Shown here: piece by piece, positions 28,343 through 31,791 of the stretch | Numbering within the stretch: the first letter of the stretch is position 1 | How the letters are laid out: every line of letters starts with the position of its first letter | Assembly: GCA_903858015.1 (NCBI GenBank) | Contig: CAIOGZ010000077.1 | Location: 62,001 to 126,000, forward strand | Direction: 5' to 3' | Origin: an uncultured cyanobacterium | Lineage (GTDB): Bacteria > Cyanobacteriota > Cyanobacteriia > PCC-6307 > Cyanobiaceae | Length of the DNA: 64,000 bases | Made by a program: the position numbers and the translations under genes | Notes under the pieces: model-generated | Told to the model about the DNA's origin: nothing | What the model saw: the letters and a program-made list of their open reading frames with translations, nothing else | Databases searched by the model: none

Positions 28343-29052
28343 CCACGTATCGGCTTCAGGTGGCTGCCACCGCCGGAGAGCTTGCCAACCAAACGGCCGA
28401 GCAAATGGCCGCCGTCATTGATCTTGCCTTGGCGGAGCGGGACCGGGTTCAGATCGCCTTGGCCGGTGGCGAGACTCCCCGTGCCAGCTATAGCCGACTG
28501 GGTAACCAGCACTTGCCATGGGATCGGGTTGATGTGCTGCTGGGTGATGAACGCTGGGTAGCGGCGGATGATCCGGCCAGTAACGCCCGGATGCTCGGCG
28601 AAACCCTGCTCGCCCAAGATCCGGCCCGCAGGGCAGCCTTCCATCCCGTTCCCACCCATCACGCCAGCGCCGCCGCCAGTGCCGAGGCCTATGGAGAGCT
28701 CCTAAGTCGCCTTTGCCCAGGTGACCCACCCTGCTTCGATCTGATCCTGCTCGGGCTTGGGGACGATGGCCACACCGCATCCTTGTTTCCGGGTACCGCG
28801 GCCCCAACGATCCGCGACCGCTCCGTGACCCTGGGCGAAGGTAAGGGCCTGGTACGGATCACCCTCACCGCAGCCGTCCTTTCGGCGGCACGGCGCGTGA
28901 TCTTTCTGGTCAGTGGTGCCGGCAAGCAACAGGCCCTGAAGCGGCTCTTGGATCCAACCGAGCCGGCTGATCGCACCCCAGCCCGGTTGGTCCAACCAAC
29001 TACAGAGGTGCTGATCATGGCCGATGCGGCCGCTGCCCAGCTCCTTCGTTGA
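28339..29052 (+). CDS. pgl: 6-phosphogluconolactonase
   Basis: The protein has 237 residues from ATG 28339, in the ATGA overlap with gnd. Pgl hydrolyses 6-phosphogluconolactone, the step just before Gnd. Family motifs are LAGGETPRASYSRL (phosphate loop), VDVLLGDERWV (conserved Asp/Glu/Arg), FDLILLGLGDDGHTASLFPG (catalytic His) and RRVIFLVSGAGKQQALKRLL. It belongs to the DevB/SOL type rather than the beta-propeller type. glpX, hemA, glgC, gnd and pgl lie in a row on one strand. Confidence 0.95.
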   Translation: MTTYRLQVAATAGELANQTAEQMAAVIDLALAERDRVQIALAGGETPRASYSRLGNQHLPWDRVDVLLGDERWVAADDPASNARMLGETLLAQDPARRAAFHPVPTHHASAAASAEAYGELLSRLCPGDPPCFDLILLGLGDDGHTASLFPGTAAPTIRDRSVTLGEGKGLVRITLTAAVLSAARRVIFLVSGAGKQQALKRLLDPTEPADRTPARLVQPTTEVLIMADAAAAQLLR

Positions 29053-29068
29053 TACTGGTCTGAGGAGA

Positions 29069-29698
29069 ATGGTGAAGCGGATGGAGCCTGATGTGACTGG
29101 AGGTGATGCTGCCCTAGAACGGCTGCCGTTGGGCCAACCCAGTCGATTGCTGGTGGCCGGTGACGGCTTCGCCCCCTGGCATGCCCTGAACGACACAATC
29201 ATGGGTGGCCGCAGCAGCGGCAGTTGCTCGATGCAGGCAGGCGCGCTGCATTTTGATGGCGAGCTGGTCGAGCAAGGGGGGGGCTTCGTGAGTGTGCGGT
29301 CGCCCCTCTTTTCTCCTCCCCTTGATCTTTCCAATTTCGCCGCTTTCCAATTTGAGCTTGCCGGTCAAGGACGCCGGTTCAAGTTGGCGGTCGCCTGCGC
29401 CGATGGCGTAGCGGGTTTAACTGAGCTGATTCCGGGTGGTTTGCGCTGGGTGCACGAGTTCAGTACCAATTCGGCCGATCTGACCAAGGTGCGGATTGGC
29501 TTTGATCAGCTCATACCTTCGGTGCGGGCCCGGCCGATCGAGGGCTTACCACTGGGCTTGCCCTTGCGCTTTGATCCAGCCCGCATCACGCGCCTCCAGA
29601 TACTCCATTCCAAATTCGGCGATGCAGGCGCACCGAATCCAGGCTTTCGGCCAGGACCCCTTCATCTGGAGATCCATGCCATCCGTGCCACGGCCTGA
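29069..29698 (+). CDS. CIA30-family protein
   Basis: The protein has up to 209 residues. Close starts are ATG 29069, GTG 29072 and ATG 29081; a GAGGAG at 29062-29067 best spaces GTG 29072. The galactose-binding-like CIA30 (NDUFAF1) fold is indicated by WHALNDTIMGGRSSG near the start, then FVSVRSPLFSPPLDLSNF, and FDPARITRLQILHSKFG near the end. In mitochondria CIA30 assists complex I assembly; in cyanobacteria the role is not established and could concern NDH-1 or another membrane complex. It follows pgl closely (about 16-28 bp, depending on the start) on the same strand and may be co-transcribed. Confidence 0.8.
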   Translation: MVKRMEPDVTGGDAALERLPLGQPSRLLVAGDGFAPWHALNDTIMGGRSSGSCSMQAGALHFDGELVEQGGGFVSVRSPLFSPPLDLSNFAAFQFELAGQGRRFKLAVACADGVAGLTELIPGGLRWVHEFSTNSADLTKVRIGFDQLIPSVRARPIEGLPLGLPLRFDPARITRLQILHSKFGDAGAPNPGFRPGPLHLEIHAIRATA

Positions 29699-29710
29699 GC
29701 CCGATCGCCC

Positions 29711-30079
29711 GTGGAGCTAACTCAGCTGGTGGCGGCTGCGGCTGACCTTTGCCGCAAGCCTTTGCGCCATGGCGTTGTTTTGAGCAGCGAACCGGGCGAA
29801 CCGGATTGTTGTCTGCGCCTAGAAGCTCGCTCGCCGGATGGGGAACGGCTAGCTGCGGAAGATCTCCAATTGGAGATCTTCCGCAGCGGCAGCGGGGCTA
29901 ACCGGAGTCTCCACCTCATCTTGGCCTGGCTGCTGGATGACACCCGGCCGATGCTCTGGCAGGGCAACCATGGTGTTTGGATGGATGCGGCAGGAAATCG
30001 CTGCGATCGCCCCGCCGATGGAGTGCCGCTGGAGGCATTAGCGCGGCGACTGCGGGCCCTGCTGGTGGATTTGCGTTGA
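29711..30079 (+). CDS. Conserved hypothetical protein carrying an internal DNA palindrome
   Basis: The protein has 122 residues, GTG start at 29711, 12 bp after the CIA30 gene. Composition is soluble and mixed; segments such as LHLILAWLLDDTRPMLWQGN and PLEALARRLRALLVDLR look well structured. I recognise no named family, and no motif suggests catalysis. The codons for AAEDLQLEIFRS lie in a perfect 36-bp palindrome (29852-29887), which does not disturb the frame. Likely the last gene of the pgl / CIA30 unit; the convergent ilvD gene ends 41 bp further on. Confidence 0.65.
   Translation: MELTQLVAAAADLCRKPLRHGVVLSSEPGEPDCCLRLEARSPDGERLAAEDLQLEIFRSGSGANRSLHLILAWLLDDTRPMLWQGNHGVWMDAAGNRCDRPADGVPLEALARRLRALLVDLR
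29852..29887. repeat. Perfect 36-bp palindrome inside a coding sequence
   Basis: The left arm GCTGCGGAAGATCTCCAA is followed directly by its exact reverse complement TTGGAGATCTTCCGCAGC, with no loop: 18 of 18 positions pair. The flanking bases (A before, G after) do not pair. It lies wholly inside the small gene at 29711-30079 and encodes A-A-E-D-L-Q-L-E-I-F-R-S. It contains two AGATCT sites and a central CAATTG. Confidence 0.95.
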
Positions 30080-30120
30080 GTTCAACCACCAGGGGCCCAG
30101 CCTTGGGCCAGCGTTGCAGT

Positions 30121-31791
30121 TCAGGGTTGGTCGGTTACGGCCCCAAGGCTGCTGCTGCTCACCAAGCGAGCGTATTTTCCCAATACCCCGGTGCGGTATC
30201 GCGGCTCGGGTTTGAGCCAAGCGGCGCGGCGGCGATCCAGCTCGTCATCGGACACATTCAACTGAATCAGCAACTGATGCGCATCCACCGAGATGCTGTC
30301 GCCTTCCTGCACAAGTCCGATGTTGCCGCCCACGGCGGCCTCAGGAGCAACATGGCCCACCACCAAGCCATAGGTGCCACCGGAGAATCGGCCATCAGTA
30401 ATTAGGGCAACCGATTCACCCAGTCCCCTACCGACGATGGCCGAGGTCGGCGCCAGCATTTCGCGCATTCCTGGACCACCAACGGGCCCCTCATTGCGGA
30501 TCACCACCACATCACCGGCAACAATCCGGCCGGCCAGGATCGCCTCAAGGCAGCTCTCCTCGCTCTCGAATACCCGGGCTGGACCGGTGAGAACGGGCGT
30601 TTTTACGCCACTGATCTTGGCCACGCTACCCTCGCTGGCTAGATTGCCTTTCAGAATTGCAAGGTGGCCTTTGGCGTAGAGCGGATTGCTGAGCGGGCGG
30701 ATCACGTCCTGGTCATTGGCTGGTTCGGCGGGTAGATCTGCCAACAGCTCTCTGATCGTCTTGCCCTCGATGGTGCGGCAATCGCCATGCAGCAAGCCGC
30801 CGTCTAGCAACAGCTTCATGACTTGGGGGATGCCACCAGCCTTGTGGAGATCGGTGGCCACGTAACGGCCACTGGGCTTGAGATCGCAGATCACAGGCAC
30901 CTTCTGGCGAATCATTTCAAAGTCGTCGATGCTCAGCGGTACGCCGGCGGTGCGGGCGATGGCCAGTAGGTGCAGCACCGCATTGGTGGAGCCTCCCACC
31001 GCCATGATCACAGCGATGGCATTTTCGAAGGCCTCGCGAGTAAGCAAATCCAGGGGGCGAATATTCCGGGCAATCGCCTCAACAAGAACCTCGGCGGAGC
31101 GGGCGGCACTGTCGGCCTTCTCCGCATCCTCAGCCGCCATCGTAGAGCTATAGGGAAGGCTGAGACCCATGGTTTCAATCGCTGAGCTCATGGTATTAGC
31201 TGTAAACATGCCGCCGCAGCTTCCGGCACCGGGACATGCATTCTTCTCGACAGCGGTGAGTCTGTCCTCATCAATCTTCCCGGCAGTAAACTGGCCTACC
31301 GCTTCAAAGGCACTGACCACTGTGAGATCACAACCACCCAGCTTGCCAGGCTTGATTGTGCCGCCGTAGACAAAGATTGCAGGGATGTTCATGCGAGCCA
31401 TGGCCAGCAAGGCGCCGGGCATATTTTTGTCGCAGCCCCCCACCGCCAGCACCCCATCCATCGATTGGCCATTGCAGGCGGTTTCGATCGCATCGGCAAT
31501 CACCTCACGGCTGACCAGGGAGTACTTCATCCCCTCGGTGCCCATCGAAATGCCATCACTCACCGTGATCGTTCCAAACATCTGGGGCATGGCCCCGGCA
31601 GCATGGGCTGCCTGTTCGGCGCGGCGAGCCAGGTCATTGAGCCCCATGTTGCAGGGGGTGATCGTGCTATAGCCGTTGGCAATGCCGATGATCGGCTTGT
31701 TGAAATCGCCATCTCCGAAGCCCACGGCCCGCAGCATGGCCCGGTTGGGGGAGCGCTGGATCCCCTGGGTGATCGCGGCGGAGCGCAGCAT
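30121..31791 (-). CDS. ilvD: Dihydroxy-acid dehydratase
   Basis: The protein has 556 residues, normal length. IlvD dehydrates dihydroxy-isovalerate and dihydroxy-methylvalerate in valine, leucine and isoleucine synthesis. Iron-sulfur cysteines are seen in [18 protein letters not shown] and in [18 protein letters not shown], plus an N-terminal ITPCNMGL. Other landmarks are the early [20 protein letters not shown] and the late [20 protein letters not shown]. The start ATG at 31789-31791 is consistent with the family. Upstream on the same strand are a small membrane protein and a upp-like gene. Confidence 0.97.

Follow-up and report, generated by a model that had tools for sequence, protein, structure and literature searches.

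Imperfect inverted repeats are a known substrate of quasipalindrome correction, a template-switch mutation that has been described in bacteria through the Ripley model, the E. coli thyA hotspot and lacZ reporters (PMC7202029). In coding genes of Saccharomyces cerevisiae, template switching is described as altering up to five neighbouring residues (PMC8604942), and template switches have been argued to be able to make perfect hairpin stems in one step (PMC8794818). The nearest look-alike that we found to the locus described here is the set of coding palindromes in nematomorph mitochondria, for which template switching was raised by the authors as well (PMC6649704). The titles retrieved in a limited literature search included no study of template-switch events in cyanobacterial coding genes.

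The palindrome described here occupies positions 29852-29887 of the window (the whole stretch of 64,000 nucleotides that was analysed), where GCTGCGGAAGATCTCCAA directly adjoins its exact reverse complement. All 18 of 18 pairs are formed over 36 bp with no spacer, and the base flanking the palindrome on either side is unpaired. It lies in frame and spans codons 48-59 of a 122-codon host gene (Table 1), the left arm reading GCT GCG GAA GAT CTC CAA and the right arm TTG GAG ATC TTC CGC AGC; the centre falls on a codon boundary, so that each left codon mirrors one right codon. The initial annotation had reported a spacerless perfect palindrome inside the intact reading frame of a small conserved gene, at odds of one in a million per window. 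The palindrome and the open frame are both confirmed, the gene is indeed conserved, and the odds are about right, with 2.75e-6 perfect 36-bp palindromes expected per window from base composition. These per-window odds exaggerate the surprise, because the site was chosen as the extreme of a large scan. As in the nematomorph mitochondria, the locus combines a perfect in-frame inverted repeat, two arms that both code for conserved protein, and gain or loss between species; the nematomorph palindromes are described as numerous and up to 284 bp long, whereas here there is one, of 36 bp, on a bacterial chromosome (PMC6649704). The palindrome is a real, if improbable, feature, and its cause is quite probably of a known kind.

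Table 1. Features at the palindrome locus, in window coordinates.
Feature	Position	Strand	Description
Upstream neighbour, CIA30-domain protein	29024..29698 (putative start)	+	Pfam PF08547, E 1.3e-30
Host gene, conserved 122-aa orphan protein	29711..30079	+	Open frame, GTG start
Left arm	29852..29869	+	Codons 48-53 (Ala-Ala-Glu-Asp-Leu-Gln); putative rewritten half
Right arm	29870..29887	+	Codons 54-59 (Leu-Glu-Ile-Phe-Arg-Ser); putative template

The host protein is matched in 266 of 300 family genomes and in 38 of 42 genus genomes, its own genome counted in both cases, and a CIA30-like segment is present in the retrieved flanks of all 38 genus loci (38/38). At E <= 1 the protein falls into neither a Pfam nor an NCBIfam family; its three sequence matches in the PDB (E 0.39-0.64) are not convincing, and comparison of its model with the PDB by fold gave no match at E <= 0.001. 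The AlphaFold2 model predicts a confident fold (mean pLDDT 93.5), with a short helical turn at codons 48-50 and a beta strand at codons 52-59. Asp51, Glu55 and Ser59 are invariant across 28 aligned sequences and are retained in the gene that carries the palindrome. The closest orthologue, L037, shares 74% protein identity with the host protein. Right behind the palindrome lies a four-residue insertion that is common to this species and to L037, L038 and L004, which are best-scoring or similar relatives.

The orthologue DNA was taken from the best-scoring loci among the matching family genomes and from all 37 other matching genus genomes, with an additional, incomplete match in one genus genome left aside; the resulting set of 58 orthologues comprises the 37 genus members and 21 sequences from other genera (best family hits). 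These relatives carry an imperfect palindrome at codons 48-59, which stems from the conserved Asp-Leu-x-Leu-Glu: the codons of Asp-Leu-x-Leu-Glu-Ile, GAT CTx xxx xTG GAG ATC, come close to complementing themselves, and GAG ATC read on the opposite strand is GAT CTC. Across the 58 orthologues, between 5 and 13 of the 18 pairs are present, 9.14 on average; the two closest relatives, L037 and L038, each have 10. If these proteins were encoded by synonymous codons drawn at random, the mean would be 8.40 pairs, and 39 of the 58 orthologues exceed the expectation from their own synonymous shuffles; relatedness and codon usage may produce this small excess. None of the 58 has a gap in the twelve codons, and none in the set has identical residues across them. 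Searches for the palindrome core with up to 3 mismatches, using 24 bp against 42 genus genomes and 26 bp against 400 family genomes, each returned a single genome, the one studied here. The palindrome is thus confined to this species among the genomes searched.

The two arms differ in how they relate to the orthologues. The right arm is identical to that of L037 (CTG GAG ATC TTC CGC AGC) at 17 of 18 bases and agrees with the right arms of the 37 genus relatives at 14.7 of 18 bases on average. The L037 left arm, CCG GAG CAC GAT CTT GAA, is unlike that of this species: seven bases and four residues differ (Pro to Ala, Glu to Ala, His to Glu and Glu to Gln), three of these residues lying in the turn. 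When L037 is used to predict the left arm of this species, the reverse complement of its right arm gives 17 of 18 bases and its own left arm 11 of 18. Across the genus, the left arm matches the left arms of relatives at 10.4 of 18 bases and the reverse complement of their right arms at 14.7 of 18, and is nearer to the latter in 37 of 37 comparisons, a result that is partly built in, because the arms of a perfect palindrome are mutual reverse complements. On average, one of 38 genus members shows this preference, namely this genome; in single comparisons a few relatives do so (for example L049 and L061, each in 4 of 37). The first base of codon 53 is G in all 37 genus relatives (37/37) and C only in this genome. 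The informative part of the arm comparison is that the right arm is the conserved half. The restriction to one species, the imperfect precursor in relatives, the identity of the conserved arm and the match of the other arm to it are direct observations.

Our preferred explanation, which we consider quite probable, is that quasipalindrome correction gave rise to the palindrome specifically in this lineage, through a template switch during replication that copied the right arm over the left. The ancestral gene would already have carried an imperfect inverted repeat at codons 48-59. The replicating polymerase would have switched template, with the right arm templating the left, and then switched back, leaving a left arm perfectly complementary to the right one, with the reading frame intact and no bases inserted. 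The donor was presumably the partner arm, since the 18-mer has no other copy in the genome (3.84 Mb, 100 contigs), where it occurs solely at these two arms when up to 2 mismatches are allowed; the initial annotation had advised a search for further copies, and that search returned none. The new left arm may have been tolerated because three of the four changed residues fall in the short turn before the beta strand. Replication as the setting, a single event, the direction in time and neutrality are what we infer about this history. The likeness to quasipalindrome mutation as described in E. coli is that an imperfect inverted repeat is made perfect by the rewriting of one arm from the other; there, new mutations are seen under selection, whereas here the event would lie between species and would have altered several bases of a working gene (PMC7202029). 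As in the yeast account, arms would have been homogenised within a reading frame and neighbouring residues changed (up to five in yeast, four here); that work compares strains with close parental nodes, whereas here the organism is a bacterium whose nearest orthologue stands at 74% of the protein (PMC8604942).

Several points count against the template switch, namely the ordinary rate of the left arm, the conserved right arm of the relatives, the partly built-in outcome of the arm comparison, the change at the first right-arm base, the conflicting trees and the picking of the site as an extreme. Against L037, the left arm has changed at 7 of 18 bases and the other gene positions at 85 of 315; these figures show no clear acceleration of the left arm over the gene, so the case depends on where the changes led and not on their count. 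Relatives, too, conserve the right arm more than the left, and the right-left gap of L039 (4.81) is larger than that of this species (4.30). The first base of the right arm also differs from L037 (C to T). Two trees give conflicting positions for this genome, with no firm placement: a nucleotide tree built from the host gene minus codons 48-59 together with the CIA30 and ilvD segments (ilvD being represented at just 18 of the 38 loci), and a protein tree in which codons 48-59 were kept.

The ordinary divergence of the left arm also fits an origin by chance, in which the protein dictated an imperfect palindrome, independent substitutions happened to complete it, and a search through a very large number of windows singled it out as the extreme case. 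The precursor in relatives, which reaches 13 of 18 pairs, favours this explanation, as does the codon choice: given the protein of this species, synonymous choice alone forms 11.8 pairs on average and completes the palindrome with a probability of 4.65e-5. When codon columns are treated as independent, however, the probability of a perfect palindrome at this site is 9e-11 to 1.7e-9 from the 37 genus members and 6e-9 to 1.1e-8 from the 58 orthologues, each range being set by the pseudocount, and base composition predicts 1.65e-4 such palindromes in the 3.84-Mb genome. Long perfect palindromes are moreover commoner than chance in a sample of 1,062,106 bases from this genome, which holds 11 of at least 20 bp where five order-2 Markov simulations averaged 3.0, and 3 of at least 24 bp where they gave 0.0; after the 36-bp palindrome, the next longest are of 26, 24, 22 and 22 bp. 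Six relatives (799,468 bases) gave 9 of at least 20 bp against 2.2 simulated and 2 of at least 24 bp against 0.4. The genus sample thus holds somewhat more long perfect palindromes than expected, as arm homogenisation would yield, and other causes are possible. Taken together, we consider chance completion unlikely.

The palindrome could instead be a functional element specific to this species, acting either through an mRNA hairpin within the gene that restrains expression or serves as an RNase cleavage site, or as the binding site of a dimeric protein. The predicted fold is strong, the 36-mer folding into 16 pairs closed by a loop of four bases, at -31.7 kcal/mol (z -8.9), and the orthologues stand slightly above their synonymous shuffles in pairs, an excess that relatedness and codon usage may explain. 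The segments of the two closest relatives, in contrast, fold like shuffles (z -0.01 and 0.07), two others reach -1.64 and -0.81, the palindrome is absent from the other genomes searched (among 42 of the genus and 400 of the family), its arm is unique in the genome, and the palindrome coincides with no terminator-like site, no sigma-70-like site and no Rfam match. On this evidence we judge a functional element to be very unlikely. The palindrome lacks conservation in relatives and is hence not a conserved operator or hairpin. The initial annotation had listed a protein-binding operator and a cruciform or recombination site among the candidates; each predicts conservation or recurrence, and neither was seen, since the orthologue alignment that it had recommended as a check gives at most 13 of 18 pairs (n=58) and the core lies in this genome only, out of 42 of the genus and 400 of the family. 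Its further suggestion of an mRNA hairpin limiting expression stands as far as the strong fold goes and fails on conservation and recurrence, the two closest relatives having no hairpin. An intrinsic terminator was rejected, as the sole terminator-like site within 29600-30200 sits at 30156-30172, away from the palindrome; a known RNA family was likewise rejected, the palindrome matching none in Rfam. We give hardly any credence to a combined history in which a template switch made the palindrome and the protein variant at once, and the stable predicted mRNA hairpin set a new protein level and was fixed for that reason.

The gapless alignment bears on two further explanations. An artefact of assembly or amplification, in the form of a fold-back chimaera or a read error induced by the hairpin, is made conceivable by the single assembly that represents this species. 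One would expect a fold-back to leave inserted or truncated sequence, whereas both arms code for the conserved protein in register with no extra bases and keep Asp51, Glu55 and Ser59; the absence of any gap in the twelve codons across 58 orthologues makes a fold-back artefact unlikely, and we consider any such artefact very unlikely. The same absence of gaps indicates that existing bases were overwritten and none inserted. The recent inverted duplication proposed in the initial annotation is accordingly right in that an inverted copy seems to have been made, and wrong in that bases were replaced rather than added. An inserted palindromic repeat element was rejected, there being no additional bases relative to the 58 orthologues and the arm sequence recurring nowhere else in the genome.

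The mechanism of quasipalindrome correction is already known, and the palindrome is a clean natural example of its product in a bacterial gene. It would be a readable fossil of a template-switch mutation in a bacterial protein gene, in which one can still see the arm that probably served as donor, the arm that was overwritten and, in relatives, the imperfect starting state. Template switches change several neighbouring amino acids at once and may thereby mimic positive selection, as is argued for yeast (PMC8604942); they may also mimic a functional DNA motif. A template switch should be weighed before a regulatory role is assigned to a perfect palindrome within a gene.

Other inverted repeats were seen in this genome and its relatives. 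A single-protein scan of the genome contigs found no relative, and a scan with a protein alignment found 176, among them Cyanobium, Synechococcus and Prochlorococcus, of which 80 were kept. These 80 loci were used solely for a palindrome background of 138 loci, many of them on contigs also fetched otherwise, and the 454,939 bases of this background contain one 20-bp palindrome.

On the contig of the window, a second perfect palindrome within a gene (26 bp, L151:9892-9917) lies in a 271-aa frame, which we take to encode a PpiC-type peptidyl-prolyl isomerase; at this site, the 12 readable relatives (of 13) form 5 to 9 of 13 pairs, and none is close. In relative G062, a perfect 36-bp palindrome (L187:6036-6071) lies just beyond the end of a frame that is presumably an IS66-type transposase, and in relative G090 a perfect 26-bp palindrome (L189:15835-15860) lies between two frames that we assume to be an IS21-like pair. 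The two longest palindromes in relatives (36 and 26 bp) thus adjoin or separate presumed insertion-sequence genes. Perfect stems of at least 12 pairs with loops of 3-6 bases number 18 in the genome of the window against 0.6 simulated (1,062,106 bases) and 4 in the six relatives together against 2.8 simulated (799,468 bases); the excess in the genome of the window could be due to terminators or a dispersed repeat. In L172, a 17/18 inverted repeat centred near 640 sits where two frames converge (ends 618 and 642), and is, judged by this position, probably a two-way terminator.
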